Origin: Gracilaria domingensis
Taxonomy: Eukaryota > Rhodophyta > Florideophyceae > Gracilariales > Gracilariaceae
Length of the DNA stretch: 64,000 nt
Assembly: GCA_022539475.1 (NCBI GenBank)
Contig: VCMS01000045.1
Coordinates: 1 to 64,000 of the forward strand
Direction: 5' to 3'
Shown here one piece after another: positions 4,270 through 48,354 of the stretch. The notes under the pieces are model-generated. The model saw only the letters and a program-made list of their open reading frames with translations, made no database searches and had not been told where the DNA came from. Made by a program: the position numbers and the translations under genes. Each line of letters begins with the position of its first letter. Position 1 is the stretch's first letter.

Positions 4270-4292
4270 CGTCTGTGTTCTGCAAAGTGGAA
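4270..4292 (+). repeat. Left terminal inverted repeat of the large DNA transposon
   Basis: It starts CGTCTGTGTTCTGCAAAGTGG immediately after the last base that aligns to reverse transcriptase. It pairs with 40495-40516 reversed: the first seven bases are identical, then one mismatch, then a TTGCA/CTGCA-type match and a shared TGGAA. Confidence 0.6.
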
Positions 4293-4736
4293 TATAGTCT
4301 GTTCGCTTTGGAAACTAAGCTAGTTTTGGGGCTATTTGGGGCGCGCGAGGGGGTAGCAGAGGCTGGCACTCAAAAAATTAAGAAATTTTGGAATATTAAA
4401 TTCCATCTCGCCGCAGTTTAGTTCTTGGGTCCCCTAGTTTTTGCAGAGGTTCTACTTCGCCGCACCACCCCATTCACTCTTTTCCGCGACCCTCTCTCAA
4501 AACTGCACTCGTGCTAGTTTGCCTTTCCATTTTCTCCCATGTTGCAATGCCAATCGCAACTCATCCCACCTCAATCATCCCATCACTTCTTCCCAGTCCA
4601 CACCACCCCCGCTATTTACCCATTTCTCGCCCATCACGCGTTCGCATCCTCTCTCTCCGTCTCCGCAAACGTCATTTTGTAGAAGTAAGGTGGACAACCT
4701 CCCCCTACTCGTATACCCGCCTCGCCCAAAACGGCT

Positions 4737-5517
4737 TCACATCCCTCCCATACTTCTCTCCTCCTGTCCCCTCAGAATCCCCTTCGCAGTCCGCGCTACC
4801 TCCGCCGCACTCCTAAACCCAGTCACCACCGGAGCTCCGACTCCCTCCCGCGGCACCTCCTCCACCACCTTCTTCATCTCCTTACGCCTCTTCTTCAGAG
4901 AGCTCTTTTCCATCCCCAATCCCACCACCCTTTGTCTTCGGTGTCACAGGGGACCCCTTCTGCACCGCCACCCTTCCCGCACTTCCGTTCCCCGTCTTTC
5001 CCTGCACATCTCCTTTCACCGTCTCCACCTCCACCAATCTTTTCCTGTTGCCCAGCTCATTCACCTCCTTCTCCAGCACGTCCAACCTCTCGTTCAGAAC
5101 CCTATTCTCCTCCCGCAACTCTCCAACCTCCCTTCCCGCACACTCCACTATCCATACACATGATTCCTCATCTCCACTCCCAATACCGACAACGAATTCC
5201 GCAGGCTCGAAATCGCCTCAACCGAAACACCACCACCACCCCCCACTCAGGACCACACCGCCCATTTCCGTTACAATTTTCCTAATGCCATTGTCCAGTT
5301 GTCCTTCATCACCAACCCCAACATCCCCACCCTCGCCTTCATCTCCCTCACAAACCGCATCTCACTGTCACCCCCTCCGCCCCCACTCTCTATCTGGTCT
5401 CCAAGCTCTAAATGACTCAGATGCACCGCACCCCTTCTCGCCATTGCGACCCCTCCACCTCCAATTCTACACCCTTCTCCACTCATCACCATCCGCTCTC
5501 TTCGCCTCACACTTCTT
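4737..5517 (-). pseudogene. Broken minus-strand coding remnant with a coiled-coil segment
   Basis: The minus strand here is purine-rich and holds consecutive open stretches: 5271-5517 (Gly-rich, then FVREMKARVGMLGLVMKDNW), 4882-5148 (a heptad-like segment ELREENRVLNERLDVLEKEV) and 4737-4928 (Lys/Glu-rich, KKRRKEMKKVVEEVPREG). They lie in different frames, so either frameshifts or introns separate them. The predicted protein would be a charged coiled-coil protein; I recognise no family. Element 2 inserted at 5522/17967, so the upstream part of this gene would continue at 17972 and beyond. The long Pro/Ser/His-rich plus-strand frame over 4441-5163 looks like its antisense shadow. 4293-4736 shows nothing coding. 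Confidence 0.3.
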
Positions 5518-5522
5518 TCCTT

Positions 5523-6317
5523 TGTTGTGCAAAACCCAGCGATGGGGAAAGACACGCAAAAGGCGGTTCAGACCCTCTCTCAAGAGGCGAGCACAGCAGT
5601 AGAGCGCTCCCACAGGTACGACACGGCAATGCCGGGTGTAAGACCGGGGTCGACCCTTCCCAAGTAATGGAGGGAGCGAAGCGGCGAAGAAGAAGCGTCC
5701 AGCGGTAGAGAACACACGACACAAGTCGGCAGTAGCGTCACGTGCGTAGCACGCGGTACCCACGAGTGTGGCGATGACACGCGAGAGCGGGTAATAGCCC
5801 ACGCGAGTGTGTCGAGCCACGAACGGTATGCACCGGTACACCAAGTAGTGCTACCTGTATAACAGGGACAGAAATAAAGAAAACACACACCAAAGTAAAC
5901 ACGCGGAAAGCGGTAGTGGTGTTAATGATGCCGCGAGGCGGATGATGAGCCCTGCACAAGGTGCCGACTCTCCGGGAGGAGGATATCGGTCACCAAGGGT
6001 GAAACATCAGAGCCGAACACTCGGTTGTTCGGTTACTTCCCCGACAATGGGTGCAGCTCAACCTACTAAGTAGTGTTAGAGTGCCACTGTCAAGTGTGCA
6101 ACCGGGCTAACTAAAATAAATAATAAATATCTAGAATATCCAAAGTTGGGCTGGCAACGCAGAGACCATACACGTGTGTGTACATCCTAGGGGAGAGTGA
6201 TGTGCCTCAACGCTCACCAGAGTCCCTTGAACGCTCCGAGGCTATGCAGCTGCAGGGGGCAAGTTGTTTCACACAGAAAGCGCAGCAAATACCGCAATCA
6301 AAGCGGTGGCTTCTACA
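5523..6317 (-). repeat. 3' LTR of element 2
   Basis: It matches the 5' LTR at 17204-17966. The first 580 bases are almost identical. From about 6.1 kb to the end this copy carries many one- to three-base insertions (795 against 763 bp). The conserved palindromic motif CCGGGTGTAAGACCGG is at 5632-5647. Confidence 0.9.
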
Positions 6318-8488
6318 TATCGCCGCTTCTGGTAGGTGGGCGAAGACACTCGGTCTTCATGACGGTTGAAGCACCCGGACAAACGCAAACATACGTTGTG
6401 CATCAACCGCAAGAGCGGGGTATCTGGCGAGCGATCGTAAGAATTTGCGCCATCTTACCCGTTTCTGGGTCATATATGCGGTCGTCCTGTACTCGCCTAT
6501 GAAGTTGCGTCACCGTGCTATGCGACGTGCCAATAACGTTGCCGACATCGTCGTGAAAATGGTTGCAGCACGCCAGATTGGGGTTCACTGCGTTTCCATT
6601 CACGCCCAATAACGGTCCTGGAGCCCGGCGCAATATGCGTTTGGCTTCTCCTAGTGCGGGGTGCGCAACCAACGTCCTTGACGTGCCCTTGCCCGCAGTA
6701 CGGGCGAGCGCGAAGGTGTCCTGCGCAAGCAGCTGCAGCAACGCTCGACACACCCGAACGGGAGCGGTCCTCCTGAACTTCGTTCACTGTCCCGGGGTTC
6801 CGGTGCTATACCTCTCTGAGGCGCCTATTTTCCCTTTCAGGGGCGGTTGCCACACTGTGGAATCGACAAGCGCGATCCAAGGTCACCCAGTACAGTAGCG
6901 ACCTTTTCCTGCCCAATTCCTTCCTCTCCGAGGTCCACCGTCCCGTTATACGGTCGCTCACATCACGCAATCAAGCGGCACGTAGTCTCTAGATGGGTTC
7001 AGAAGTTACGACATTGTCGAATCAACGCTGCCGACGACGTTTCGGAAACTTCACACAAAGAAATTGGGAATTTGACATACCCGAAAAATTGTAGTCGCCA
7101 TAACTTTTGAACCAGCTACGCTCTGAACAAACCCGATACATCGGAGAACTCCTGAGAATCAGAGCTTTCATTTGACATCAAAACTGTTGGATTGAACACC
7201 ACTAAGTGGGAAAGCCCGACCCATTTCAGTTGACAAAAATGCGGTCTAAAAATAGATTGTTGAACCGAAACGGTGCCGTAGCTCCAAAGTTCTTCAAAAA
7301 CAATTGCGTTCGGTTTCCGCCAAAGTGTTTGTATACATCCAGTGACTACTGGTACAAAACCGTTGAAGAAACGAGCCAGTATTCACCGAGTTACGGGTCT
7401 TTTGCAGATGACCCTCGCAAGGTACTGTAGAGGTGATACACCCGACATCGGAGAACCGCGAAAAGACCAGAAACGACTGGTAATCGATACCAACGCCTTG
7501 TGCGGCTGTACCAGAGACCGCAGAAGCGTAAAAGACGGCCTCCACAACGGAGTGAACAGTAGTAGACGTGGTCGAAAGTCGTTGACAGCAGCAATTAAAC
7601 CGGTAATCCGTGAAAACTTTCAACCGGATGACGGCGTACTAGACCTTAATCAAGGTTCAACCTCTACCGAGGGCAGTCACTAGACCTCACAGAGGGTTCG
7701 TGAAACCCAAAATCAAACACACCAGCAAGGCTGAGACAACAAATGACACCATAAAAATGGGTCGCAAAACAACAATGATCCTTCAACAAGATGTGTATCT
7801 TCCGGTCCCGTACCGTGCAGAACTCACGAGAACGTCTCGTAAGCTTTCGAAAACCCGTGCAAACGGTGAGATGGAATGATAGGCCGCAGTGCGGGCGCAA
7901 ACGAAGCTCCAGAGATATCGGTTAACCAGAAACTATCCTCGACCACGAGAGTGACGAACCCTTACAAAGGTGATGATAACCGATGAAGATCGGGGTTCTT
8001 CCGCAATATGCGTGACGGTTTCGAACCTCGGCCGCATGTGGCGTGCAGTGAGAACCGTGAAACGTGCAAAGACCGTCACTGACGAGAACGAACCCTGTTC
8101 AACGTGAAAGCCAAACGAACGAGCGGTGCTCCTCGAAAATGGCAAAAGGTGATCAAACCGGTAGATACACATGATGTACACGGAAATTGTACACCCTTCT
8201 GCTAGGGAAAAACCGTGATTGCGGTCCACTATGGTAGTAGCGAACCCGCAAGCTGGACAAAAACCTAACAGGTAAACAACATCGAAAACGATTGAATAGC
8301 GATTAGACACGACATGAGTCGGATTCCAACCGCAAAATGCGAGCAACCAAGTGACCCCACATGGGTGAGAGTCACATGTGAAACTCCTTCTTCATAACTT
8401 CGCATCTGAATGACAATTCCTCTCCATAGAGTCTTCATTCTTCTTCCGAGTGTACTTCATCCTCTTCAGAGTGCAACTAAACTTCTCC
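6318..8488. other. Element 2 region between 3' LTR and chromodomain, no gene recognised
   Basis: About 2.2 kb with only short frames on both strands and no similarity I can see to the antisense ORF that elements 3 and 4 carry in the same place. No clear polypurine tract abuts the LTR at 6318, unlike elements 3 and 4. The part next to the chromodomain (about 8380-8500) is pyrimidine-rich on the plus strand, as is the matching part of element 4 on its opposite strand. Confidence 0.5.
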
Positions 8489-9379
8489 TCACCTGAGGGC
8501 ATAACTGATCTTGAACTCAACTCTCTTCTTCCTAGAGTGTCTCCTCACCACGCGAGTAGCGGTACAGTACTCCTCTGGAGGTTGTCGCAGTGTTCCTCGA
8601 TTGAGTGTTGTCGTTCGTAGAACCGTTCGTGCGCGGTACGCGATACGCCTCCGTCTCCAACGACGTGTGTTATCCGACCATCGCTTGATGTAGGTTAGCC
8701 GGCAACGCCGTGTTAGTTCGACGATGGTACTGCACGATCTTCGATCGGGTAAGTGCTCCACGGGTTCGTCCGAATCCCGCGACGGCGGATAGCCATACCA
8801 GCGTACCTGGTACTGAACATACCCCTTCGGATTCCAACTGTGTCCCACGATGTGGTCTACGACGAACTCTTTCGAGTATACGCCCCGCTCGAGCTCTTCC
8901 TGCGAAGGGTCGTCAGCGCGCTGCGGCGGTGCCGTAACTTCGTGACCAGCGGTGCTGTGAGTTTCTCCTGACGCCTTCGGCGGTGGATTTGCCCTCTGCT
9001 GAGTGTTCGTTTCCCGTTTCCGGGCTTCTTCAAGCAGCTTCGCCGCTTCGGCGGGTCCGCGAACGGCTAGTTCACGCGATAGTTCCCGTCTTGACGGTGA
9101 AGGCGGACGCGGAGGCGGATTGTTCACCACGGCACGTGCCGGTTCACGTGAAGACACGCGACGGTTCGCGGTGGTGGCACTGCCACGAGCTGTGACTGGC
9201 CCATTGTGTGGGGCGCGCTGCGCGCCCCAAGATTTGTGGTGCGCAAGCGCTCCTGCAGCTGCAGTGTGCGTTTTCCCTAAATCAGGGCTGTAATCCGTAT
9301 CTCCAAAGAGCGGTGCGCCGTCATGACTTAGCGAAACGTCATGACGTGCGACTTGCGACTTCCCCACGGCTGGGTGCAA
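8489..9379 (-). pseudogene. pol: Chromodomain-bearing C-terminal segment of element 2 pol
   Basis: Residues about 170-225 of this 296-residue frame form a chromodomain. YSKEFVVDHIVGHSWNPKGY is followed by QVRWYGYPPSRDSDEPVEHL, which carries the conserved aromatic and acidic positions of the fold. In chromoviruses this C-terminal module of integrase is thought to steer insertion to particular chromatin marks. The preceding residues are Pro/Ser/Arg-rich, a disordered linker. After the chromodomain the frame runs on into about 70 basic residues that have no counterpart in elements 3 and 4, suggesting a frameshift near 8.7 kb. It is cut off from the integrase frame by disruptions and the polypyrimidine tract. 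Confidence 0.75.
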
Positions 9380-9959
9380 CGGTACACTACCATTACCCGA
9401 ACCGGGGTGTGTGATCTTCGCTTCAGCGAGCGTCTCCTCTTCTTCCTGCTCTGCAGTGTCTAAGGTACCGGGATCTGCCGTGACTTCCTTAGTGCGCGCC
9501 CGCGAAGGCGGTATGTGGCGGTCGTCAGCGACGGTTTGCGGCGACTGCGCGTCCGGAATACTCCGTGATACACTATCCAGCTTCGCTGTAGCCTCACTCT
9601 GCCGAGAAGTCGAGTGTTCTTGATCAACTCCGGCCTTGCCGTGGTAACGTCGCGAACGAGAGCATGCTCCGCGTCCTGCGCCGACGAGGCGATGGGCGCG
9701 TGTTCTGGCGACGATTCCCCCAGCGGATGAGCGATACCAGTATCCTGGGACAACCTCGAGTCCGTTCGTTGCGTGCGGTATCCTTCAGAAAGGTCGCGAT
9801 CCTTCGTAGAAGGTTGTGCATCCTCCGCGGAGTTCTGCGCGACAGCGGCCGACTGGAGCGCGTCCTTCGCGGCCTCAACACGCGACAGCGGGTGATCCTT
9901 CCCACTGACAGTGGTGTCCGTAGCAACTACGTCTTCGACGGTGTCCTGAGGCGACCCCG

Positions 9960-10464
9960 CCTCCTCTTCTTATCTCCCCCTTTCCTTCTTTTTTCTTTTC
10001 CCTTTTTCCCTTCTTCCTTCCCCTCTTTTTCCCTTTTCTTTTTCTCTTCTCCTCCTTTTGCCTTTCTTTCTCTTCTCCTTTCTTCCCCCCTCCCCTCCTT
10101 CTTCCTTCTCTTTTCCCCTATTCTTTTCTTCCTCTCTTCTTTTTCCTTCTTTCTCCCCTTTTCTCTCTTTCTTTTCTCTTTATCCCTCCTTCTCCCTTCT
10201 TTTCCCCCTTTCTCCTCCATTATTCTCCTTTTTTATTTTGCTTTTTTTCCTTTTTCCCCCCTCCTTTTCTCCTTCGTTTTTTCCTTCCCCCTTTTTCTCT
10301 TCTCCTTTCTTTCTTTCCTCCTTTTCCCTTCTCTCCTCTCCTACTCCTCTTCCTATTCTCTTTCTCCCCTTTTTCTCTTTCTCTTCTTTTCTTTTTCCTT
10401 TCTTTTTATTTTTCTTCCTCCCCTTGTTTCTGCCCCTCTTTATTTCTTTTCTTCTTTCTTTTCC
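9960..10464. repeat. About 505-bp almost pure polypyrimidine/polypurine tract
   Basis: The plus strand is nearly all C and T with no fixed period and very few purines. Element 1 has only about 25 bases of pyrimidine-rich sequence at the matching place (about 1445-1470), flanked by the same unique sequence (GTCCTGAGGCG before, CCGTGAATCAC after). So the tract is an insertion or expansion inside the pol tail of element 2. The Lys/Glu/Arg-only minus-strand frames and Ser/Phe-only plus-strand frames over it are compositional. Confidence 0.85.
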
Positions 10465-10469
10465 GTGAA

Positions 10470-11462
10470 TCACGTCTGCGACGGTAGCGACACCGGTGAC
10501 TCACTCTCCGCGACGACGCGTGAATCCTCCTCCCCCTCCTTAGGTGGAGCGTTACGGGGAGCAGTCATCACGTCTGTTGACGGTGTAATAGACGCCGTGA
10601 AACGCGATTTCACCAGCGGTGTATGTTCCGATATCTCGGCTTGGGACGATATAATCGGCACCTCTGCGAGACCCCTTGCAGGGTTGCGAAGCCCCACAGT
10701 AGGTGTAGTGTTCTGCGACGAGAATTCTCGGTTCTGTGTCTGTCCAGCTTCCTGCTGTGAATCTGAAACTATTTCCGTGTGCACGGTTGGGCCCTGCACA
10801 ACGCGATCGCGGGAGAAACGCTCATGAGCGTCGCCAACTTCCAGTACGACTGTGTCCGTATTCACGCTAATAACGCGGTATGGACCATCAGCGATGGGTG
10901 AAAGCTTGTGGCGCCGCTCCTTTTCAGGGTTGTAGTACTCCTTTCTGACAAAGGCGAGGTTTCCCACTTTCAGTGGCGGTAGTGGTCTCCGTACCCGGGC
11001 ATCAAAGTTCCGCTTGTAAGCGTGTTGTGCTTTCGCCATTGACGACCTGGCGACAGGTACCATTGCGGATAACCACTGCTTCCATTGCAAGTAGTGATCC
11101 CGTATTGACGGTGACGTATCCAGCTTTGCTGATGGTTCAACCGCAACTGGCGGTGGTGTCCGTGAGAGCACGAGCTCAAAGGGCGATAAACCAGTTACTC
11201 TGTGAACTTGCGTATTATACGCATACGTCACGGTATCCGTGTAGAGATCCCAAGTTTTCGGGTGTTCAACAGTATAAGCCCGCAACGCGGAGAGCATCGT
11301 CCGGTTAAACCGTTCGACTTGCCCATTGCATTGGGGATGATACGTCGTCGTGAAGAGATTCTTCACGTCGAGTATCCGACAGACATCCTGGAAGAAACGT
11401 GCAGTAAACTGCGGACCATTATCTGAGAGGAGATTGACCGGGGGCTGTAGACCATAACCCAA
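10470..11462 (-). pseudogene. pol: Integrase C-terminal half and tail of element 2 pol
   Basis: The frame begins within the integrase catalytic core (LLSDNGPQFTARFFQDVCR carries the second Asp). It continues through the CNGQVERFNRTM segment with the catalytic Glu, the SPFELVLSR motif and the GPYR-type C-terminal domain. It ends in a Ser/Thr/Pro-rich tail. It follows the frame at 11524-14680 with a frame change near 11463-11523, and there are about 20 codons of lost homology between the two. A polypurine motif (10525-10544 read in reverse) lies in the tail and encodes PPKEGEE. Confidence 0.85.
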
Positions 11463-11523
11463 TGGCGAACGAATGCCTCTGCAACACTGCGTGCTGTAAT
11501 CGACTTCAACGGAACTGTCCGGA

Positions 11524-14500
11524 CTAGCTTACTGAATCTATCCGTAATAACGAGTAAGAACCGATTTCCTCGGGAGTACGCAAGAACTCGCCGAGTATAT
11601 CGATGGCAATAAACTCCAACGGCGCCCTTGCGGGGAAAAGTGTTAGTTTCTTCGCATGGCGACGCTGTTTAACTCGCTCTCGAGCACAATGTGTACACGC
11701 CTTCACGGTGGTGTAGCAGTCCAACGCTAACGCGGGCCAGTAGAAATCCCGACGCAGTGTCGTGTATAACCGCTTAGCACCCGGATGGGAAGCCATCCGC
11801 GAGTGATGCGAGAGATGCAATACCCTTGTTTGTAAGGAGTGAGGAACCACAATCTGTGGGGTAGAACGAACCACTCTGACGAGGTAACCTTGTGTGTTGA
11901 CCCCGAACGGGATGTTAGCACCACCATTAATTTGGGAGCGTATCCTCGTACAGAACGGGTCAGATTGCTGTTCCCGCACCAGCTCTTCTGGAGTAATGGG
12001 GACGAATGTACCGGATTCCGGGTCTTCACCGTCTGCGACGAGCAAATCATCACAGATGTCGTCCGACACGATGTCGTAGTCTTCATCACCCTCCTCCATG
12101 AGGAAACAGGGGATATCTTCATCCTCGTCATCGACGGGTAAAGCTTCACCTTCAGTTCCTAGACGTGAAAGAGCATCCGCTTGCGCGTTTAAACAACCCT
12201 TCTTATAGGTGACCTCGTAGTCAAACTCGGCAAGCCGAAGACGCCAACGCATTAAGCGTCCGGAAGGCTCCGTGACTGACATTAACCAACGCAAGGCGGA
12301 ATGGTCCGTATTGACGGTAAAGTGCACACCCATAAGATATGGTCGTAGAGTCTGCAAAGCCCATACCATGGCGAGACACTCCTTCTCGGATACCGAGTAA
12401 TTGCGCTCGTGCACGTTGAGTGTACGAGACCAATAGCCAATTGGTTTGCGTTCCCCTTCGGGTGTAGTCTGAAAGAGAGCGCAGCCAATTTGGTAATCGC
12501 TCGAATCCGTATCCACGGTGTACGGCAACCCGTTCTTCGGTAACGCTAACACGGGTGCCGTGGTAACAGCCTCTTTAAGAGAGTTGAAAGCCTCCACTTG
12601 CGTGGGGGTAAGTGGTCCCAATTTGGGCGGTTGTCCCTTCTTCAGGAGTTCGTTGAGCGGTCCCGCGATCTTCGCGAAGCGAGAAATGAACCGTCTATAA
12701 ACGTTGCATAGCCCCAGAAAGGAGCGTAGCTCTGTCTGTGTAGTGGGGTGCTTCGCCTCTTTGAGGGACTTCACGCGAGCTTCCTCGATCAGTAACCGTC
12801 CTGGACGTATGACATGGCCCAGATACTTCACTGAGTCAGTGAAAAACTCACACTTCCTCAATTTGAGAGTAATTCCAGCATCCCGCAAAGCGGTCATTAT
12901 CTCCCGAACATGTTCGAGGTGATCGTCCAAACTGTTGGAAAACACGATGATGTCATCGAGGTATACCAAGCAACTCCGCCATTTGAAGCGAGCTAACAAA
13001 ATGTCCAGAGCACGCTGAAACGTAGCGGGGGCGTTCGTTAACCCGAACGGCATACGCTTAAAGCGGTATAGTCCTGAATGACAGGTAAACGCGGTCTTGT
13101 CACGGTCTTCCGGTCTAACTGGTACTTGCCAGTAACCCCAGTTTGCATCCAAAGTGGAGAACACAGTAGCATCGCCAAGCGAGTCGATATACTCGTCCAT
13201 ACGAGGTATGGGGTACACGTCTTTGACGGTGACATCGTTCAAGCGACGATAGTCGATACAAAAGCGCCAGGACCCGTCGGGTTTCGGAGCCAGTACAACT
13301 GGAGATGCCCACGGCGACTGAGCCGGTTCTATCACGCCAGCGCGGAGCATTTTGTTGATCTGAAACTCTTCCTCTTCCCGTGCTTTCGGGCCTGCCCTGT
13401 AAGGGTGCTGAGCAATCGGCTTGGTCTCCGGCAGGAGGTCAATCCGGTGTTCCGTAGTTGAAACCTCTCCGAGGGAACCATCCCAAATTGGTGTAAACTC
13501 TCGCAACATGTTGCGCAACTTCTCACGGTGTGAAACCGGTACATGACCGAGATTCAATTCTTCTAACTCCTTGATAGGGTCAATCTTGTCATAACTCGTA
13601 GGAACGGTCCTAGCTTCCGAGTCATTCGTGTGTTCAACCGTCTGGGACGGGTCCGACGCAGACGAGCGCGACGATTCTCCCTCCCCCTCCTTAGGGTGAA
13701 GCAAACCAGTGCGTTCTTCAGCAAGCCCGAGCATCTCGGCGGCAGTCACCTTTGTAGGGATAAGCGCCGTAGGGTGCGGTAAGACAGTACCAATTACTTG
13801 GTTCTTCACCAGATACTGGGGCTTCTTGCCAAAGTTGGCCAACATAACCCGAAAGGGGTGTTCGCTGTTGATTTGAACAACTCCGTTCGCCAACGCGACC
13901 TGATACTTCTCGTATAACGAGTTCAATGGTTGAACAACCCGCAAACCACGCGGTGCGGCAGTAACATCAACCCAAACCTGGGATTCTGGCGGAATAGAAA
14001 TTGCACGCGCTACGCGGAGCTTCGGCGACTCCTTCGGAGGTGAGGAATCCTGTAGAGGAGCGGGTAGTGGTACCAGCTTAGCTGACGCTCGGCGTAATGA
14101 GCGACGAACAATTGGTACAACCGAACCATCTTCCATTTCCACTTCACGCGCACGCGGTCGTATGGCTTCGACATATCTGTCGCAGAAGTCACACCCTAGA
14201 ATGACAGGGGCAGCGAGCGTCTTGCAGACGATGAATTCTACCTGCTCGATGCAGTTACCAATCCTGACAATCAGTGAAACCATTCCAGCCGTTTGTAACG
14301 GGTTATTGTTAGCATCTGCCACGTCCATGACGGGTCCAGAGCGGACTCGACAACGGAGTTCCGGCGGTAGTAATGACTCAACAATGAAGTTGGGGCCAGC
14401 ACCTGTATCCAAGACAGAGAGATGACGCACCATATACTGGGTGGATAGGCCAAGGTCAGCAAATATCTTGTAGTTTCGCTTGGCCATTACCATGACTCGA

Positions 14501-14680
14501 TCCGGGATCCGGTTGTTCCTGAACCGTATCCACGGGCGACGTAACACACCGATGGTGGTAGAGTCCACGTCTAAGACGGTCTGTTTCCTCGAAAGGATTT
14601 TGACCTGGGAGCGAGGCGGTGACGCCTCGGGCGCCGTAGACCTCGACTCGGGCGCCTCTCCATTGGAGACTCCCGTACTC
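11524..14680 (-). pseudogene. pol: Element 2 pol: protease, RT, RNase H and integrase N-terminal half
   Basis: This is one open frame of about 1,050 codons in the -1 frame relative to gag, with no ATG required (the ATG of element 1 is ACG here). In order: aspartic protease with VLDTGAGPNFIVE; RT with a SPWASPVVLAPKPDG motif, FTCHSGLYRFKRMPFGLTNA and the catalytic YLDDIIVFS; RNase H with YTVDTDSSDYQIG; and the integrase HHCC zinc finger (HLSHHSRMASHPGAKRLY, then CTHCARERVK) followed by FIAIDILGEF with the first catalytic Asp. The frame is lost at about 11524, inside the integrase core, and resumes in 10470-11462. A polypurine motif at 13675-13694 encodes the linker PKEGEGE between protease and RT. 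Confidence 0.9.
13675..13694 (-). promoter_or_regulatory. Internal polypurine motif in the pol linker of element 2
   Basis: Read on the element strand it contains CTAAGGAGGGGGAGGGAGAA. It shares CTAAGGAGGGG with the 3' polypurine tract of element 3. The equivalent sites are 35085-35101 (element 3), 41141-41160 (element 1) and 51651-51669 (element 4). A second internal copy lies in the pol tail: 10525-10544, 31847-31864, 1541-1563 and 54840-54858. Role as an additional plus-strand primer is inferred. Confidence 0.45.
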
Positions 14681-17201: not shown

Positions 17202-17203
17202 AT

Positions 17204-21064: not shown

Positions 21065-21069
21065 TCGAT

Positions 21070-29520: not shown

Positions 29521-29547
29521 CGGTAATACAACCTCGACGAGGGCAGG

Positions 29548-30266
29548 ATGGCGCCGAGCCAGGAAGATATAAGTGCAGCGCTCCCCGATCCTCCGGTATG
29601 TTCTTCTCCTTCTCCCGTCAACGACGTGCTCCCTGCTTCTGCAGTAGCAGCACCTCCTCAGAGTACCGAACTCTCTCTCGCTCCTGCGATCAACTTTCCT
29701 CCGACACCGGAACTAGACCTCACTATGAGTGGTGTTCCACCGAATCAGCCTCCGAACCGACCACCGTTCCCCCAAGGGGGCCTCACCGGATTCCGCTCCG
29801 TTCCGCTCCCCGGCGCGTGCCAGCCGATCACCCAACTGGGTTTGTGAACTCGGATGAGTATTACCGAGAGTACCTCGGGGGAGATCCAATGGTGGATAAT
29901 CAGCCCGAGGACACGGGAGGCGACGATATCGAGATGATCGAAGAGATCGACGCAACCCCTGCGGGGGAGAGCGCCGGTTCTGCTCCGTTTGTCGGCTCCG
30001 CCTCGGCGGCTGACTTCATCGCTCCCACTCCGGTTCCCATTCCGGTACCCATTCCGGCTCAGCCGGCTCTTCCCGCTGTTGCGGCTGCTGCAGCTCATCC
30101 CCCGCCGGCGGGTGTGAACGAAGGTGCGATTATCGCTCGCTTCCTCCGCGGCGCGGGTTTAAGTGCTAGTGCGGCCTCTGGCGACGTCACCGCTATCGCG
30201 GATGCCTTGGCTCAACGCCTTGGCGGTATGCCTCCTCAGAATGAGGGCGATGGCGACGGCCAGTAA
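29548..30266 (+). pseudogene. Internally deleted remnant of the antisense ORF of element 3
   Basis: The ATG at 29548, 43 bp from the 3' LTR and opposite to gag-pol, opens a Pro-rich frame of 99 codons. A second frame from about 29700 continues to a stop at 30266. The first part contains FPQGGLTGFRSVPLPG, the second PADHPTGFVNSDEYYREYLG and DPMVDN, then a Pro/Ala-rich tail with PPPAGVNEGAIIARFL. These correspond to both ends of the 685-codon antisense ORF of element 4 (GGFQSAPLPQG; GHPVGFVFPEDY; DPMVDN; PPGVNTIARL). About 430 codons of the middle are missing and the frame changes at the deletion. Function unknown. Confidence 0.6.
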
Positions 30267-30656
30267 ACGGGAGCCGAGCTTCCCCATGCGTGGGTAATTA
30301 CCTGTTCACAGTAGTATAGCCTTGAGATAAAAAAGATTCTTTGCTTCATTCACGTCTTCGACGGTGTATTCCTTCCTCACCGGCATAGCCGGCTAATGCA
30401 ATGCGATGCGATGCGCTGCGAAAAACGCACCCTTCTGAGGGGAAAAACCATCCTCATGGTGTGGCACCGAGGCCATTACCAGCGAGCTGGATGAAAAACC
30501 CTCAGGAGTGAGTCTTCTTTCCGAAAATCGGTGTTCGAGCGGCGCGAGCCGGTCGAACCGTCAATGCGACAGGCATTCCACCTAGGTGGTGTGGGCCCAA
30601 TTTCCGTCACATGACGTGTGTTACCAACATGGTATCCTTCCGTTTCCACGGCAACC
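30267..30656. other. Intergenic part of element 3 between antisense ORF and chromodomain
   Basis: No ORF of note. The two convergent coding units of element 3 end here on opposite strands. A short run of GATGC/GATGCG near 30400-30420 is the only repeat seen. Confidence 0.5.
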
Positions 30657-33600
30657 TTATCCCACTTGGGCATCGTCCAGCGTCGCTGGTGTGGCTGTCC
30701 CCGCGGAGCGGTGGTACTGTACGACCTTCGAGCGTGGTAGGTGCTCGATAGGTTCGTATGTATCCCACTCTGGGTCGTAGCCGTACCAACGGACGCGGTA
30801 TAACAAGATGCCTTCCTGGTCCCAGGTATGCCCGACAATTCGGTCGACAATGTACTCCTGAATGTAAACCTGCCGGCCTTGCCGTGTTATTGTTACTTCA
30901 TCGGTTGACAACCCTTGCGGGGGGACGGTTCTCGTGACGGGGGTAACAGCGCGCGCTTGGGTTTGCGTCGCCAGTTCCCTCCGAGGGGAGGTGCTTTCGA
31001 TGTCGCTGCGTACCGCCATTCGGCGTGGGTCCTTCCGCTTCGGCGGCGTCGGCGTAGCTGTGTGCTCGCCTTGTCCGTTTGCGTCGGAGAGTCCCACCTC
31101 GGGTGGCTTCACAACCGTGCGCGCACGTGACTGTATCGACGGTTGACTGTCAAGCTCCCTCGGGAGAACCGCCTCCCTGTTACAGGTGTCCTCCAACGGC
31201 TCCGCCGTTGGCCCTTTTCTTTCTTTGCTCAAGTTCCCGTTCTGAACGGTTACTTCCGGGTTACCGGGGTTATCGACACCGCCGGCGGCTTGCGATCTCG
31301 TGATCTCCGCGCGTGCCTGCGCTTGCGCCGATATTTTACGCCCAATATTTGGTGCCGTACCGTCCATGACGTGAACTCTTCCCGGAGTGTCCGGCATTCC
31401 CACGGCTGTACCGCCGGGTTTTACCGAGTTGCTCGGGATTTCTTTTTCTTCAGCTCGTGCCTGCTCCGGAGGATTTTCCAGGATTCCTGGTCGTTCTGCG
31501 TCGCGTCGCGCGGCGGGCCGCGATGTCGCTGCGCTTTCCCCAGTGGGGCTTCGTTCCGACGGCGTCGGCGTGATGCCGGCGACATCTTTCGACTTCGTTC
31601 GACCCAGCGCGGCTGGTTGGCCACGAGGTTCTGTTGACTTAACCGAATCCGCTTCTGCGTGAGTGTCCTTACCCGGCGACGGTGTAGACTTCCCGGCAAC
31701 GGGGCTGTGTGTGCGGCGTGCGAGCGTGCGTTGCGGACGCGATGCCCGCGCACTGGCCGGAACATCCGGAGAGCTCCGTTTACTCCGTGCTTCACGTTTG
31801 TTCTCACGACGCGACGTCGGCTTATGACTCTCAGCAGAGCTGATAACCTCCTCCCCCTCCTTAGATGGAGCGGCGTGGGGAGTAACAGAATGTCCCGCAT
31901 CGCGGGTAGGTGAACCCAGCGATGGGACAAAAACGGGGGTGCCCTGGTGGCGATCATTGTCCGACACAGTCGGCGGCACCGACTCTATCGGGAGGTCTGT
32001 AAGGCCTCGGTGGGGGTGGGGCAGGACGGAGAGTCTTGTCACCATATTTGTTTCCGGTGGTACCGGTGTTGTTGACTCCGTAGACACGGGCTCTGTATCA
32101 GACGGGGTAACCTCAGACGAGGGTGGAGGGGCCATTACCACGCGGTCGCGGGAGATCCGCTCATGCGCGTCAGCGATCTCGACTACAACAGTGTCTGGTG
32201 CAACCGAGATTACCTTGTACGGTCCATCCGCCACAGGCGAGAGCTTATGACGTTTGCCCTTTTCAGGGTTGTAGTGTTCCTTCCGTACGAAGACATGGTT
32301 TCCCACCGTAAGGGGTTCAGGGGTCCTTCCTCGCAAGCGAGCATCAAAATCACGCTTTTAAGCGGCTTGGGCTTTCGCCATTGACTTCTGGGCAGCCGGT
32401 ACTAACTTCGTTAGCGAGGCTTTCCATTGTTGGCGATAATCACCCACAGATGGGAAACTGCCCAAGGTAGCTTGTGATTCTAACGCCAATGGCGGGGGTG
32501 TCCTTGACAAAACCAGTTCGAATGGGGAAACACCAGTAGTCCTGTGTACCTGCGTGTTATACGCAAAGGTTAACGCGTCGGTGTATAAGTCCCATATTTT
32601 TGGGTGGTCAGCAACGTAGGAACGGAGAGATGCCAACATCTTACGGTTATACCGTTCAACTTGCCCATTACATTGGGGATGGTAAGTGGTCGTGAAGAGG
32701 TTCTTCACGTCCATGATGCGGCAGACATCCTGGAAGAACCGGGATGCGAATTGCTTTCCGTTATCGGATAATAACTCCACAGGAGGACCGTACACGAAGA
32801 TCCAGTGCGTGGCGAATGCCTGCGCGACCGTGAACGCGGTGATCCTCTTTAAAGGTACTGTCCGAACCAGTTTCGAGAACCGATCGGTGATAACGAGAAG
32901 AAATTTGTTACCTCTCCGAGTGGTAAGCAATGGTCCGAGAATATCGATTGCCACAAATTCAAGCGGCACCCTGGCAGGGAATAGTTTCACTTTCTTGGAA
33001 TTCTTTCGCAGCTTCACGCGGTTTTTCGCGCAATCGGCGCAGAAGCGTGCCGTAGCGTAACAATCCACCGCCATGGCGGGCCAGTAGAAATCTCTCCTCA
33101 AAGTGAGGTACAATTTCCGTCCACCTGCGTGGCCACCTAACTTTGCGTAGTGCGAAAGGTGTAGGATCCTCGTCTGTAACGAGTGTGGTACCACGACTTG
33201 TGGGTGTGACTCGACTGTCCTTATGAGATAGCCGATGTCATTAACCTCGAATGGGAGGGTATCGCCACCGTTTAGTCGGGCACGGACCTTGATGCAGAAC
33301 GGGTCTCCATGCTGTTCTCGGATCATTTCTTCCGGTGATACCGGGACAAAATTCCCCGGTAGGGGCTTTATAGCCTCGGTTTTGCTTGCAACAAGCAGTT
33401 CGTCGAAGTCAGCGTCCATATCTTCCCAGTCATCTGGCCAGTCGTCTAGCTGCCACTCCGGGAGTTCCGGCTCGTCATCGCCAACGACGAAGCAAGGAAT
33501 ATCATCGTCCTCGACAGCCAGAGTTTCCCCATTTGTGGGTAAGCGCGACAACGCGTCCGCCTGGGTGTTCAGGGTCCCCTTTTTGTACACGACGTCGAAG

Positions 33601-36088
33601 TCGAATTCCGCTAAGCGGAGCCTCCACCGCATAAGGCGGCCTGATGGATCAGAGATATTCATCAACCACCTCAACGAGGAATGATCCGTGTACACGGTAA
33701 AGTGCACACCTAGCAGGTAGGGGCGGAGGGTGGATAATGCCCATACGACTGCAAGGCACTCCTTCTCCGAAACGGAGTAGTTCCGTTCATGAACGTTGAG
33801 CGAACGTGACCAGTACCCTATGGGTTTTCGTTCTCCTTCGGGAGTGGTTTGGAACAGAGCGCAGCCTACTTGGTAGTCGCTCGAGTCCGTGTCCACGGAG
33901 AACGGCAATCCCGGTTTGGGTAACGATAGTATCGGTGCTGACGTAACAGCCTCCTTTAAGGAGTTGAACGCTTCCGCTTGTGCGGGCGTGAAGGGGTCCA
34001 GTTTTGGTGGCTGGCCCTTCCGCAAGAGAGCGTTAAGGGGAGCCGCTATGTCCGAAAAGTTCGGCACGAACCGTTTGTAGACGTTGACCAGCCCTAAGAA
34101 GGAGCGTAATTCCGTTTGAGTCCGCGGTTCTTTCGCCTTAGCGAGTGACTTGACGCGAGCTTCCTCGATCGTCAGCCGTCTTGGACGGATTATGTGCCCA
34201 AGATACTTGACGGTGTCGGTGAAGAATTCACACTTCCTCAACTTGAGGGTGATTCCTGCGTCACGCAGAGTGGTCATCACGTCCCTGACATGGGTGAGAT
34301 GATTCTCCAGATTACTGGAAAACACGATGATATCGTCAAGGTAGACGAGACAGGTCCGCCACTTGAAGCGGCTCAACAGAATGTCGATGGCACGCTGGAA
34401 CGTAGCGGGCGCGTTGGTTAAGCCGAAAGGCATCCGCTTGAAGCGGTAGGAGCCCGAGTGGCACACGAACGCAGTCTTATCGCGGTCTTCCTCCCTGACG
34501 GGGACTTGCAAATATCCCCAATTGGCATCCAATGCCGTGAACACGGTAGCGTCACCGAGCGAATCGATGCACTCGTCCATACGAGGGATTGGGTAAGCGT
34601 CTCTTACCGTCACGGCGTTAAGTCGGCGATAGTCGACACAGAATCTCCAGGTTCCGTCGGCCTTGAGAGCCAGTACCACTGGGGATGCCCACGGCGATTG
34701 CGCGTGCTCGATGACACCTGCGCGGAGCAACTTGTCCACTTGGAACTGTTCTTCCTCCCGAGCTTTCGGTCCTGCCCTGTAAGGGGGTTGTGACACCGGA
34801 CGCGTGTTCGGTAACACATCGATAAGGTGTTCCGTTGCATTGATCTCTCCAAGAGAGCCATCCCACATTGGGGTAAACTCCCGTAACATGTCTCTTAGAC
34901 GTTCACGGTGCGACTCCGGTACATGACCGAGGTCAAGTTCCTCGAGCGCCTTCAAGGGGTCAACCTTGTCGTAGCTCGTGGGCTTACGCTCTTCTGTCCC
35001 TGACACAGGGTTTGGTTCCGAGTCAGTCGGTTGCTTCTCCGTTGCGACGGTAGTGGTACTCGTGGAAGCGGCAGGAATTGCGACTCCCTCCCCCTCCTTA
35101 GATGAAGCGACGTCCTCTTCGGAGGTAACTAATCCAAGAACATCCGCAGCCGTCATCTTCGTTGGAAGCATCGCGAGTGGGTGTGGTGTCACAGACCCAA
35201 TGACTTGGTTCTTCACCAGATACTGGGGGGTGCTGCCAAGGTTGGCAACGAGTATCCGAAACGGAGTATCCGGTGTGACTTGCACGACGCCATTCGCGAC
35301 AGCGAGTTGGCACTTCTCGTACAACGAGGTAAGCGGTTGAATAACCCGAAGACCGTGTTGACAGGAATTAACCGACACCATCATTTGGGACTCAGGCGGG
35401 ATGCGGATCGACGCGGCGACGCGGAGCTTGGTGGACTCGCGCGACGCCGGTGCCGGGGCCTGCGCAGCAGGGAGTGGAACTTGCTTCCGCGATGACCGCT
35501 TCAGCGGACGACGGACGATCGGTACGGACGAACCGTCGTCGAGTTCTACACGCCTGAGGCGGGGCCTGATTGCATCGACAAACCTGTCGCAGTAATCGCA
35601 ACCCAAAATGACTGGGGCAGCCAATGACCGACAAACGATGAAGTCGACCTTCACCACGGAGGTTCCCAAGCGTACGACTAAGTCGATTGTTCCCACCGTT
35701 GTTAACGGGTTGTTATTCGCATCAGCGACATCAGGAAGCATGCTGCGGCGGATACGTTCCCGCGATTGCGGTGTGAGAAGGGACTCCACGATGAAGTTCG
35801 GACCTGCACCTGTGTCTAGTACAGTCAGGTAACGCACCATAAACTGGGGGCTCAGGCCGAGGTCAGCGTACACCTTATAGTTTCGCTTGGCCATCATCAT
35901 GATTCGGTCCGGGATCCGGTTCTTCCTTACCCGTATCCACGGTCGACGCAAAACACCGAGGTGTTCCGAATCCGCGTCTGCGGCGTCTTTCCTCGAGAGG
36001 ATTTTCACCGGGGAGCGAGGCAACGACGCCTCGGGCGTCAACAGCCTCAACTCTGAGGACGCCTCTCCCGAAAGGGAGACTCCCTCGT
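30657..36088 (-). pseudogene. pol: Element 3 pol: protease, RT, RNase H, integrase, chromodomain, one nonsense codon
   Basis: Apart from a single TAA at 32358-32360 (a Tyr in elements 2 and 4), the frame is open for about 1,800 codons. Order: protease VLDTGAGPNFIVE; RT with FVCHSGSYRFKRMPFGLTNA and YLDDIIVFS; RNase H with FSVDTDSSDYQVG; integrase zinc finger (HLSHYAKLGGHAGG, then CADCAKNRVK); the DDE core (FVAIDILGPL, VELLSDNGKQF, CNGQVERYNRKM); a GPYKVIS-type C-terminal domain; a 300-residue disordered tail; and a chromodomain (YIQEYIVDRIVGHTWDQEG, RVRWYGYDPEWDTYEPIEHL). It ends at TLDDAQVG. It is in the -1 frame to gag. Internal polypurine motifs are at 35085-35101 and 31847-31864. Confidence 0.92.
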
Positions 36089-38288
36089 TCAGTTTTCCTG
36101 AACTTTCGCCTGCGGCGGCTGCTCAGGTTCCTCGGCTACGAGTGCTTGGGCTCGTTGGCCGTGGGGTCCCGCGTTAGCGGTTTGGGGTTCGGCAACATGC
36201 CGAGGGTTTGGATGCACGGGTGGTGCCTGGACATTCCGCTGCGGCGGTGGTGCTGCGACAGCGTGAGAGAAGTCCGTCTTCGCACGCAAGTACGACGTCA
36301 TAGGGACGGTTCTCTTCTCCTCTGGAGTCAAGGCTTCATAGTTCACCGTAAGCATGGACATATCCCTCATCGAGAGGAGGCACTGCGGCGAAATGTGACC
36401 ATGCGTGTAGCAAAGGTGACAGATCGGCATTGCCATCCCGGAACGCGGGTTACTATTCCGAGCATCGGTGAGCCCTACCCTAGGGCGTGTGTCTTTCCAT
36501 CCAGGCCGTTGAAAACGGGTTGCTCCGTTCGCGTACGGGATTTTCGGCCCGTTTACACGGTTTGCATCTGCGTAAAGCAGCGTGCTGTCCCGAGCGGTAT
36601 CGAAGGAGGCATCCGTCGTTGAAGGTAGTTCCGTAGTTGGAATGGAACTCCGGCCTTCCTGGGCCAACTGGACGTTGTCGTACTCCCTTGGGGAGGCCTC
36701 GCTCGTGTGCAGCGACAACGATGGGGATCCAGTCTCCATCATCAACGCCTTGGCGGACTTCGACCTGGTGACAGGACCTCGTGCACGAAGTACATAACCC
36801 TCCGCTCGAGCGTACTGGACTAACTCGAGGTAGGTAATCTTCCGCTTATCCTCGCGGTAGCGGGCGACCAAGGTCTTGATGGCCGGGTCGAGGCCGTCGA
36901 CGAACATCGTACAACGTTCCCCTGCGGGGTAGACATTACCACAACGGTGGAAAGCCTTATTCAGGCGGACCGAGTAATCGGTTTCCGTCTCTCCAGACTT
37001 CTGCCGGGTGTCCCGGAGTGCCAGGATGGCCGTGCCGATTGCGTCGTTGGTGGCGTACGAGCGCAGCAAGTACTAGACCGCTTCCGGCCAGCACGCAACC
37101 CCTCCTTCGGAGGCATGAGATGAGCCTCTTACAGAGTTGAACTGGTCTTTGGCCACCCCCCGTAAGAAATACGGTAACGCAATGTAGGCCTGGCCTTCGT
37201 TCATCCCGAGAACATCGGCCTCCGCCACAAAGAGGGGGAAAATCAAGCACCAGGACTGGGTCGTCTCCAGAAAAGGTCTGGTTACGCAGTGAGAGCTGCA
37301 TACGGCGGATGCAGTCCTTCACTTTACCCGTCCCACGGGGTGTGCGATCCAATGAGGAATCCTCCAAACGGTAATACCGGTATGAGAGTAGCTTCCGATA
37401 CATCGGGTTCGTCGGCTTCAGCTCCTTCAACCCGGAGTGCTTCCGTCTCTTCGACCGGTTACGAACAACACCTTGGGTGGCCGATGACCGCTTAGAGCGT
37501 GATCAGTGCCCTGCACGACCATCTTCGATGGAAGACTCTGACGAGTCAGAACTTTCCGAATCATTCGGGGCGTCAGCTGACGTACTCGAATCCGAGTCGG
37601 AGTACTGGTTTTGCTCCTTGGCCTGCCGCCTGCGGCGTGATTTGTCCCGACCGGTGTTCTTATCGCGATGCGACACTTCAACCGGCTCCGCCGGAGTGGC
37701 GAGTTCCGCGATAGCGGCCTTCTCCAAAGTCTCCAGACGGCTTCGAATCCGATCGAATCGGGTCTCGATTCCTTCCACGAAGGCAGCGGGTCCTCCAATG
37801 CATTCCAGCACGGAGTTGACATCGGACCGTAGAATACGGAGATCCTCTGCAACATCCTTCACAGGAAATGTGCGGACTTCCTCCCGGAACGTCCGGACTT
37901 CTCCCGCGAGGGAATCATGGGCTCCCATAAGGGAATTGTGAGCAGCGCGCGGCATGCGAACCTGCTCTTCCAGGGTTGCACCCTGGAGGTCGTCAATCTT
38001 CTCCCGACGGGCCTGAGACGCCTCGGCGGTCGCCTTTACCTGCCCAGCAGGAGCCAGTGCGGCAGCGGCAGATGCCGGAGCAATCCCATCAGTGGGAGGG
38101 ATCAACGGGGAAAACGGAAGTGTCCGGCGTGCCGGCGGGTTAGACGTCCGCGAGAACGGTCTGTTACCCAATGTAGATCCAGGGCGGACTGGTATCCTCG
38201 AAGGGGGCCGACCATCCGTCGGATTACCACCGTTGGTGGAACGACTGCGAGTGATCGCAGGCTCCGCATCGGAGGGCTTCCGAGACAT
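36089..38288 (-). pseudogene. gag: Element 3 gag, interrupted
   Basis: The ATG at 38288 (MSRKPSDAEPAITRS) opens a frame with the same plan as gag of elements 2 and 4. Breaks are a TGA at 37503-37505, a 2-base loss near 37237 within the VLDFLSRF region, and a TAG at about 37074 replacing a Gln. The CCHC knuckle CHLCYTHGHISPQC is intact near 36400. The frame ends AAC-TGA in the heptamer GGAAAAC, where a -1 shift enters pol. Since the LTRs are nearly identical, the element probably moved in trans or decayed quickly after insertion. Confidence 0.88.
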
Positions 38289-38387
38289 CGGTATCCAACC
38301 AACCGTTACACGGGAACTTCCGAGAGAAAACGAACCTCAAAGAGGGTACACAAGAGTGGGTCAACCTTCTAAGTCGGGAGACGACTT

Positions 38388-39124
38388 TGTAGTGCAACCC
38401 GTGAGCGGGGAAAAGACACCACGAAGACGTTCGGGATCTTCCTCTACTGAGGGCAACCCAGAGAACAGAGCCTCTCGGGAATGGCGCAACTAGCCGGGTG
38501 TAAGACCGGGGCCAAACCGTCACGACGGGGCGTTGAGAGTTGAGCAGAGAAGAGTGACTCGCACGCGAGTGTAGTAGCCTCGAAGAGGGACGAAACCACG
38601 GAGTGGGGAAAGGGAAAGATAGGAGAGAGAGAGGGAAAAGAGAGGTACGGCGTATCGCCGGGGTATTACCTATACAGGGTCGAACACGACAACAGATGGT
38701 TATAACACTCCCAACGTTGGGTTCTGTAGAGACGCAGGGTGGATAGCCGCACCGTTACAACGGGGAGTCTCTCCGATAAGGAGTTGTGCACCGCCGAAGG
38801 CGAGAGTGGCTAGGGCCAAGATCCTTGAGGTAGAATCACCCTGGTTGGGGCACTTTACTGGTGCGACGGCGGCGACGCCGTCGCACTAAGTAGTGTCCTC
38901 ACTAAAATTAATAAATAATATTAACTAAACTTCACTAACTGTGGCAACCGCCCACGTGTAGTGGCCAACCTCCGATCAGCTCCACCGTGCCCCACGTGTC
39001 CGAACCATCCCAATGGCAACCACTAGTAATTACTAGTCATATACTGGTGTGTACCAGGCAAACCCGTAAGCGGGAAATATGACTAAGTCCAGTCAGAATA
39101 CTCATAGATGAGCGTTGCACTACA
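38388..39124 (-). repeat. 5' LTR of element 3
   Basis: 737 bp, pair of 28766-29504. The palindrome CCGGGTGTAAGACCGG is at 38494-38509. The primer site (38366-38384) reads GTCTCCCGACTTAGAAGG on the element strand. Confidence 0.93.
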
Positions 39125-39154
39125 TCTCTGCTTAATTGATTCCATTAAGCGGAC

Positions 39155-39180
39155 ATGAAGCGTACCTCATTCTCTTTCTC
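39155..39180. repeat. Right arm of a palindrome split by element 3
   Basis: ATGAAGCGTACCTCATTCTC and on to 39180 is complementary to 28736-28761 with one mismatch. A smaller hairpin (GCTTAAT/ATTAAGC) lies in the former loop. Confidence 0.75.
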
Positions 39181-39320
39181 CGCCCTCGTCGGACGCCTCC
39201 ATAAAGCGGACAGCATCCGTATCTCACGGATGTATTCCGTGCAGTCTTTCCCTGCAGTCTTTTCGTACGTGCTTCCATATCCTTCTACGTATCTTTGTTC
39301 TAAACTAACCAATCCTCACC

Positions 39321-39597
39321 ATGTCTCTTCGCGCTCTGCGACATGTAAACGGCAGGAAAAAGGCTTTGGGTTACTTTTGCGAGTTACTAGGTCCCTCGAC
39401 TTTTCTTGCGCAACGTTTCTGTTTTGCTCTATCAATGGTACGTTCCATCGCATTTCAAATGTATCCAACGTAGCATTGACTAACTTATGGATACTTTCTG
39501 CTTGCGTATACAGGTAAACGACCAATTTCATTTCGTCTCTCAAGATCGATCTCTGGCTGTTCGGGATAGGCGATTCTGGTATTTGGTTGGGACATAG
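39321..39597 (+). CDS. Small spliced gene (predicted 66 aa)
   Basis: ATG at 39321 (MSLRALRHVNGRKKALGY) runs to an ATG codon at 39435-39437. It is followed by a 76-bp intron 39438-39513 with GTACGT donor, branch point TTGACTAACTTA and a TATACAG acceptor. The second exon 39514-39597 keeps the frame and ends with TAG. The splice signals are good, but the protein matches nothing I know and is short. The exon end plus intron are duplicated downstream. It may be part of a transposon-encoded or captured gene. Confidence 0.35.
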
Positions 39598-39748
39598 GCT
39601 GCTCTCTCGTTTATCGCATCTTGCGGTATGTTTGCTGCATGGGCATTCTTGATGTCCCTGCGTGTGAGTTCTCGCTTCGACACCTTTCGCGCTTTACGAT
39701 GATGGTGGGCTGGTAATCTAACCGATCCCTTTCCTGCTTCTTCTTCCG

Positions 39749-39891
39749 TTTGCGAGTTACTAGGTCCCTCGACTTTTCTTGCGCAACGTTTCTGTTTTGT
39801 TTTATCAATGGTACGTTCCATCGCATTTCAAATGTATCCAACGGATCATTGACTAACTTATGGATACTTTCTGCTCGCGTATACAGGTAAA
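39749..39891 (+). repeat. Second copy of an exon-intron cassette
   Basis: About 143 bp nearly identical to 39376-39519. It keeps the donor at 39811, the branch point and the acceptor at 39886. The downstream reading ends after four codons (GTA AAT GAC TTT TGA). Confidence 0.8.
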
Positions 39892-39941
39892 TGACTTTTG
39901 ATGCGGACGTAGCTCACGAGTTGCAGGTGCAGGTTCCTCCA

Positions 39942-40017
39942 GTAGGGAACCATGCATCTGGGCATGGTTCCCTACATGAGGAACGCAGAGGATGAGGCGC
40001 TTCGCGCCTCATCCTCT
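39942..40017. repeat. Two adjacent perfect 14-bp hairpins
   Basis: GTAGGGAACCATGC (39942-39955) pairs with 39962-39975 across six bases. AGAGGATGAGGCGC (39987-40000) pairs with 40004-40017 across three bases. The rest of 39598-40383 shows no gene. Confidence 0.85.
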
Positions 40018-40383
40018 CGGAGTGCGTATTTGTTCTACCGATACAGCACTATGGTGGAGGTGCAGTCTGCGACATCTGCCGCAGATTGCGCCTACACCCG
40101 CTCCATCATGGGGAAATGGTACATGTAATATAGCGAAGTAGTGGTTAGCAAAAGCGGTCGATAGAAGAATAGATACGAATAAAACGGTATGATTTCATAA
40201 TGGGCATCATCTGTACTAGCACTAGTATTCCATGCGTTGCAGGGTATCATTCCGCAGAAGGTATCGTGTAATGTGCACCTTAATGGAAACTGAACCTAGA
40301 CTTCGCGAAATACCGTTCAGGTAGCCCTCGACTAAATAACTAGCATGAGTGGAAAACCCACCAGTATTTACTGCACAGCGATT

Positions 40384-40483
40384 CTGGACGACCCAAGGAA
40401 TTATCTCCAAATTTTGAAATAATTGATCTCGATATTTTTTCAAAAAATTTACTGGACGACCCTTGCCAATTTCTGGACGACCC
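40384..40483 (+). repeat. Subterminal repeats, three copies of CTGGACGACCC
   Basis: Copies at 40384-40394, 40452-40462 and 40473-40483, just inside the right terminal repeat. Short subterminal repeats commonly serve as transposase-binding sites; none are evident at the left end. Confidence 0.6.
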
Positions 40484-40494
40484 TCGCCAAAAAC

Positions 40495-40516
40495 TTCCAT
40501 CTGCAAGAGACAGACG
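40495..40516 (-). repeat. Right terminal inverted repeat of the large DNA transposon
   Basis: TTCCATCTGCAAGAGACAG and on to 40516; reversed it begins CGTCTGTCTCTTGCA and pairs with 4270-4292. Retroelement homology resumes at 40517. Confidence 0.6.
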
Positions 40517-48351: not shown

Positions 48352-48354
48352 TTT

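Follow-up and report, generated by a model that had tools for sequence, protein, structure and literature searches.

A probable Plavaka transposon carrying host-gene fragments within a gypsy element of Gracilaria domingensis

The first 64,000 nucleotides of contig VCMS01000045.1 of the red alga Gracilaria domingensis (here called the window; contig C45 of our searches, starting at the contig end) contain a gypsy retroelement, element 1, whose two halves are separated by 36 kb of other DNA. What is the intervening DNA at positions 4270-40516, and how did it come together? The 77.9-Mb assembly was searched for its ends, its genes and the sources of its interior. We consider it very probable that the insertion is a non-autonomous Plavaka transposon whose interior was copied from at least five host loci, and that two further gypsy elements entered it later.

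The insertion and its target site

The left half of element 1 stops at 4269, and the right half resumes at 40517 in the same orientation. In a self-comparison of the window, the left half aligned to a second gypsy element (element 2) at 10460-13028, and the right half matched element 2 from 13027. Element 2 also keeps the unfilled target, GTAGC-GGGGG-CGTTC. The filled site reads GTAGC-GG, then CGTCTG...CAGACG, then GGGGG-CGTTC; five G in element 2 against two plus five at the filled site indicate that the insertion made a GG duplication. The ends, CGTCTGTGTTCTGCA and TGCAAGAGACAGACG, form a 15-bp terminal inverted repeat with 12 matches and 3 mismatches. With a 531-base query across the right junction, the other 39 of the best 40 places matched the gypsy part only, from 40517 or 40518. 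These results support the original prediction of a single insertion into one gypsy element, with an inverted repeat at the breaks and a GG surplus. Its statement that the two halves cover one element holds in that they are adjoining and co-oriented, but element 1 is incomplete in the window, which starts at the contig end and lacks its distal long terminal repeat (LTR).

Two younger gypsy elements lie inside the insertion. As predicted, each has its own target duplication, TCCTT for element 2 and TCTCT for element 3, and for each an uninterrupted homologous site was seen in another copy (C304 for element 2, C26:355014 for element 3). Subtraction of 5523-17966 and 28766-39124 leaves 13,434 bp, in agreement with the predicted original size of about 13.4 kb. 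The boundaries, ends and nested elements are as follows.

4268..4269, no strand: GG target-site duplication, left copy, from comparison with the element 2 target
4270..4284, plus: left terminal inverted repeat CGTCTGTGTTCTGCA; all 8 left-end loci have this boundary, one with a single change
4270..5522, plus: Plavaka left end, high copy; 4270-5470 occurs at at least 40 places, the window's own included, at 95-100% identity
5518..5522, no strand: TCCTT target duplication of gypsy element 2, left copy; homologous empty site
5523..17966, minus: gypsy element 2, younger nested insertion; LTR matches at 5522-6318 and 17203-17967; empty site in L003
17967..18045, plus: Plavaka left end continued, the right TCCTT copy at its start; five other copies are homologous up to this point
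24788..25180, no strand: direct and inverted repeats common to other copies, from self-comparison and those copies
28761..28765, no strand: TCTCT target duplication of gypsy element 3, left copy; homologous empty site
28766..39124, minus: gypsy element 3, younger nested insertion; LTRs 99.1% identical; empty site in the C26:355014 copy
39125..39129, no strand: TCTCT target duplication of gypsy element 3, right copy; homologous empty site
39134..40516, plus: high-copy right end of the Plavaka element, containing an internal direct repeat of 147-152 bp; the last 517 bp occur at at least 40 places, the window's own included, at 97-100%
40502..40516, plus: right terminal inverted repeat TGCAAGAGACAGACG; motif in 29 of 30 right-end loci
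40517..40518, no strand: GG target-site duplication, right copy, from comparison with the element 2 target

Further copies of the ends, for which the original prediction had proposed a search, were thus plentiful. The boundary was identical in all eight left-end loci and in 29 of 30 right-end loci, one of each carrying a single change; the right-end locus L036 lacks the terminal motif. The terminal bases are CGTCTG in seven of the eight left ends and CAGACG in 28 of the 29 right-end loci having the motif; the remaining two differ by one change. The eight left loci include the window and C26:121821, which has the same gypsy flank as the window, so six are independent. Matching 2-bp duplications flank four of five two-ended elements (GG in the window, CA at C26:355014, AG in C2 and AC in C8). 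The C134 copy has no left tip.

Relationship to Plavaka and to KDZ elements

The insertion contains one recognizable transposase gene, in relic form.

26205..28446, minus: hybrid relic of a Plavaka transposase; 92% identical to an open relative over the first 439 residues and 40-64% in later parts

The relic matched the Pfam Plavaka family with E = 9.3e-5. The transposase of the C8 copy matched it with E = 5.5e-19, and an open 1071-residue relative from C60 with E = 2.6e-19, Plavaka being the sole Pfam family that this relative matched at E 0.1. A C570 copy has a transposase frame of 1100 residues, and at least 123 Plavaka matches were found in the genome. The C2 transposase copy is 95% identical to the C60 relative over 424 residues and then mostly 48-60%. 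From this drop in identity, seen in both the window relic and the C2 copy, the transposase gene looks like a hybrid. CHRC and HLLDH (CxxC and HxxxH motifs) were seen by eye in the translation of the open relative. A PDB search with the transposase gave no credible match.

The original prediction called the relic KDZ-like, after the Kyakuja, Dileera and Zisupton transposons. Both groups have been reported as TET/JBP-associated transposases (Kojima 2025, PMC12730594), so they are readily confused. In the same source Plavaka is placed in a CACTA-like clade, CMCT, with target duplications of 2-3 bp, and those of Kyakuja and Zisupton are given as 7 and 8 bp. The open transposase had no KDZ match at E 0.1 in Pfam; its match is to Plavaka only, and the duplication here is 2 bp. 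We therefore rejected the KDZ reading, which retains hardly any probability. The comparison of ends and target-site size proposed earlier likewise gave 2 bp, as in Plavaka and unlike Kyakuja or Zisupton.

The likeness to the Plavaka elements of Agaricomycetes thus lies in the transposase, the CxxC and HxxxH motifs and the 2-bp duplication, within the 2 or 3 bp of the group. The termini differ. Two end types are described in PMC12730594 from Agaricomycetes, TGT..ACA (PlavakaA) and CATCA..TGATG (PlavakaB); CGTCTG..CAGACG fits neither, and we assigned the element to neither sub-lineage. The elements here also differ from the described ones in their host-gene mosaic and, in fuller copies, in a pair of HAD genes and a DNA methylase-SET gene. 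The prediction that the insertion is not obviously of a catalogued type is accordingly half right: Plavaka is catalogued, but these ends fit neither described type, and the captured-gene interior and accessory genes are undescribed in the literature consulted.

Host DNA captured in the interior

The insertion matches five other Plavaka copies up to 18045, and homology to them is regained near 24.8 kb. The interior between is made up of fragments from no fewer than five host loci: a methyltransferase region with an FkbM methyltransferase gene inside it, coatomer alpha, a Core-2/I-branching enzyme and a REJ protein. The gene pieces that had been noticed in the insertion could be traced to C467/C182, C305, C131, C93 and C412, respectively.

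18045..18711, plus: cargo A1, first part of the host methyltransferase-gene region; C182 92%, C467 86%; Methyltransf_25 at the C467 locus, E 5.7e-9
18712..20048, minus: cargo B, FkbM methyltransferase gene lying within A and flanked by a TAA duplication of 3 bp; C305 91%; Methyltransf_21 E 4.4e-13
20047..20988, plus: cargo A2, second part of A; unbroken with A1 in C467 and C182
21112..22978, minus: cargo C, broken coatomer alpha gene fragment; 94% to C131, the sole near-complete stop-free coatomer-alpha match
22985..24098, minus: cargo E, Core-2/I-branching enzyme fragment; C93 84-87%; Branch E 6.4e-10 here and 1.1e-28 at the host locus
24110..24368, minus: cargo F, REJ-domain gene fragment; C412 90%; REJ E 9e-19 at the host locus

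When the five donor loci, with short flanks, were compared with the five other Plavaka copies, no match was found at E 1e-4, and we rejected the idea that the cargo is normal Plavaka interior. Cargo B as a separate terminal-repeat transposon was also unsupported, its ends by eye having no inverted repeat. The mosaic is present elsewhere. In C304 this left end is followed by the corresponding cargo (17967-23160, 97.7% identical), with a different flank and without gypsy element 2. With a 6833-base query of the mosaic, C304 matched bases 1-5193 (98%), C51 1-3373 (89%) and C114 5189-6833 (97%), and C164 shares the mosaic in two parts; none of these four mosaic copies was seen here with both ends. 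A second Plavaka left end starts inside the cargo of the C304 copy (L062, about 3787), at a point equal to window position 23160.

Could the cargo be accessory genes retained for their function, not random fragments? The FkbM frame of the window is still open, and across 314 residues its translation has 86% identity with the protein of the donor locus. The coatomer copy, however, has stops, the other pieces are partial and the joins lie inside genes, so we regard retention for function as highly improbable.

Coatomer alpha was captured repeatedly. Only one of 65 C-terminal matches is near-complete and stop-free, in a frame of 1335 residues. A second Plavaka subfamily, at no fewer than 40 places (its own included) with 96-100% identity, has a coatomer piece of 468 bp at a distance of 386 bp from its left end. 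C114 contains a third coatomer piece, with different ends, and C65 and C73 have it too, as judged from position. We counted the sites at which two copies agree against the host coatomer gene. The window and C304, which hold the same capture, share changes at 78 of 1520 columns. The corresponding counts are 4 of 465 for the window with subfamily 3 and 4 of 467 for subfamilies 2 and 3. The few changes shared by the window and subfamily 3 argue that their captures are independent. For the window and subfamily 2 the count is 18 of 1477; another 65 and 92 changes are private, and the ends of the pieces differ. This remaining capture is probably independent too. At least two independent captures of coatomer alpha took place.

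Several observations weigh against the interpretation given above. On its own, the window relic scores below the Pfam curated cut-off for Plavaka. The C570 element has both ends but differing flanks (AA/AT), and the 18 changes common to the window and subfamily 2 are compatible with a partly shared origin of the subfamily 2 capture. C26 has the left flank of the window, the left end and the start of gypsy element 2, after which an LTR leads into gypsy internal sequence. No cargo was found at C26, either in the nine of nine candidates scored or among the best-listed matches of a second search. The window contig or C26 could be misjoined inside gypsy repeats.

An assembly chimera, with left and right parts from different copies joined inside gypsy element 2 or 3, would account for the arrangement at C26 and for the numerous short indels by which the window differs from C26 around 2677-3500 and 6000-6750. 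But each gypsy insertion is flanked by matching 5-bp duplications and has an empty site in another copy, the left end is joined to the cargo in C304 too, and a single gypsy site with a 2-bp duplication is recovered when the outer flanks are put together. The matching TCCTT duplication in particular favours the arrangement of the window over that of C26. We consider a chimera very unlikely and retain a Plavaka transposon with captured host DNA as the explanation. The short indels, against an otherwise near-identical C26, resemble those of a poorly polished long-read assembly, and the broken frames of element 1 on the left may come from poor polishing rather than from decay. At C26, the segments 107400-109900 (L068) and 120321-124522 (L002) have the look of tandem gypsy copies, a haplotype difference or a misjoin.

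The Plavaka element would have moved by cut-and-paste, by means of a transposase from other copies, giving the observed 2-bp duplication. It would have landed at about 13.4 kb, or at a slightly different size if changed afterwards. One host piece lies in the middle of another, so host DNA would have been copied in more than once, and the two gypsy elements inserted later. The probable route of capture is repair of a break or gap in the element that copied unrelated host templates with template switching; this is suggested by joins with little shared sequence, by the 3-bp TAA duplication at B and by the contiguous source region of A. Plant Pack-TYPE elements are reported to gain DNA by tandem insertion and re-mobilisation (PMC8903248). 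For B nested in A with a 3-bp duplication, repair appears to fit better.

The insertion is bounded by terminal inverted repeats, flanked by a target-site duplication, and contains host coding DNA and no working transposase; C304, C51 and C164 share the cargo, so the captured DNA exists in more than one copy. As judged from sequence, this is Pack-type capture in a Plavaka of the fungal type, with mobilisation presumably in trans. Pack-CACTA and other Pack-TYPE elements of plants, as described in PMC8903248, are likewise bounded by terminal repeats and non-autonomous, some with genic DNA from several loci, and Plavaka is CACTA-like. The elements here differ in being of the fungal Plavaka type, in having a fragment within a fragment, in repeated capture of the same gene and in having fuller relatives of 20-23 kb. 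No description of a host-gene mosaic in Plavaka was found in the openly licensed literature consulted. Pack-type capture, well studied in plants, would thus extend to a fungal-type Plavaka family, in which fragment-inside-fragment joins and repeated capture of a housekeeping gene make the mechanism readable.

Accessory genes in fuller relatives

Three fuller copies examined are 20-23 kb long. The C8 element (20.15 kb) has both ends, an AC duplication, a 629-residue transposase frame, a HAD-type hydrolase gene (HAD1) with a convergent second copy (HAD2), and remains of a DNA methylase-SET gene. The 356-residue HAD1 frame is open in 54 of at least 93 HAD-family matches (hand count), and at least 12 of the best 40 left-end places have HAD1 beginning 4.35-4.38 kb away (hand comparison). 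HAD1 matched one HAD hydrolase in PDB (E 0.0019), and its nearest NCBIfam family is Cof/HAD-IIB, below cut-offs. HAD2 is 45-48% identical to HAD1. By eye it has no first Asp of the DxD motif, the usual nucleophile position. As a measure of selection, pairwise ratios of nonsynonymous to synonymous substitution rates were 0.35-1.35 for HAD1 (6 copies) and 0.54-0.68 for HAD2 (3 copies), values affected by decay and one frameshifted tail. Tail-to-tail pairs of HAD-type hydrolase genes were seen in L043, L046 and L050. Two long frames, L046:7503-9899 (minus, 799 residues) and L049:5831-8137 (minus, 769 residues), had no Pfam match at E 0.1.

The methylase-SET gene is found in the fuller relatives L047, L049, L050 and L076, convergent to the transposase at about 6 kb. 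In L076 (C171) a PF01555 methylase domain (E 2.7e-15) and a SET domain (E 9.2e-8) lie in one frame. The best solved-structure matches of the methylase are DpnA and CcrM, over the S-adenosylmethionine (AdoMet) part of the domain, and a catalytic DPPF was seen by eye before the AdoMet motif (permuted type). Matches to the methylase were present in 74 of 50,697 records of a phage collection, at identities below 60%. The genome has at least 150 PF01555 matches, of which 8 belong to a frame of 1055 residues. The window itself yielded no match when its translation was searched with the methylase-SET protein.

For 29 of at least 123 transposase places a methylase was found 5.5-6.5 kb downstream in convergent orientation, as compared to 1, 1 and 0 of 123 at three control positions. 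By hand-sorted transposase group, the linkage was 17 of 77 and 12 of 46 among the matches listed; ten loci of the second group are about 44% identical to the first. A methylase is also within 12 kb of 22 of at least 88 HAD places, on the same strand in 22 of 22. All these linkage counts are lower bounds, and most listed transposases have no listed methylase nearby.

We tentatively suggest, as a possibility somewhat short of even, that this gene of the full-length giant Plavaka elements joins a bacterial-type permuted DNA amino-methylase to a SET histone-methylase as a writer of two chromatin marks, kept in two subfamilies with transposases only about 44% identical. It may mark the element's own DNA against silencing, with Pack-type copies riding along. 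The bdelloid rotifer N4CMT, stated in PMC8885841 to have no eukaryotic homologs, is similar in joining a permuted PF01555 methylase to a chromatin domain in a eukaryote; it differs in having SPPY where DPPF is found here, a chromodomain in place of SET, and an allelic host gene pair instead of many transposon copies. SET-carrying transposons of oomycetes (HarbingerS and MuDR; PMC12730594) are also DNA transposons that encode a SET domain, but they belong to other superfamilies, and here SET is in frame with a bacterial-type DNA methylase. The openly licensed literature consulted yielded no report of a methylase-SET gene in Plavaka. If the suggestion is true, these copies would offer a testable case in which a transposon of a eukaryote brings along its own enzyme for writing DNA and histone marks.

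Outside the insertion, a further LTR element occupies window positions 47364-59666, with 988-bp LTRs 99.5% identical and an orientation opposite to element 1. Directly next to the methyltransferase region at C467 lies a related LTR, about 81% identical.

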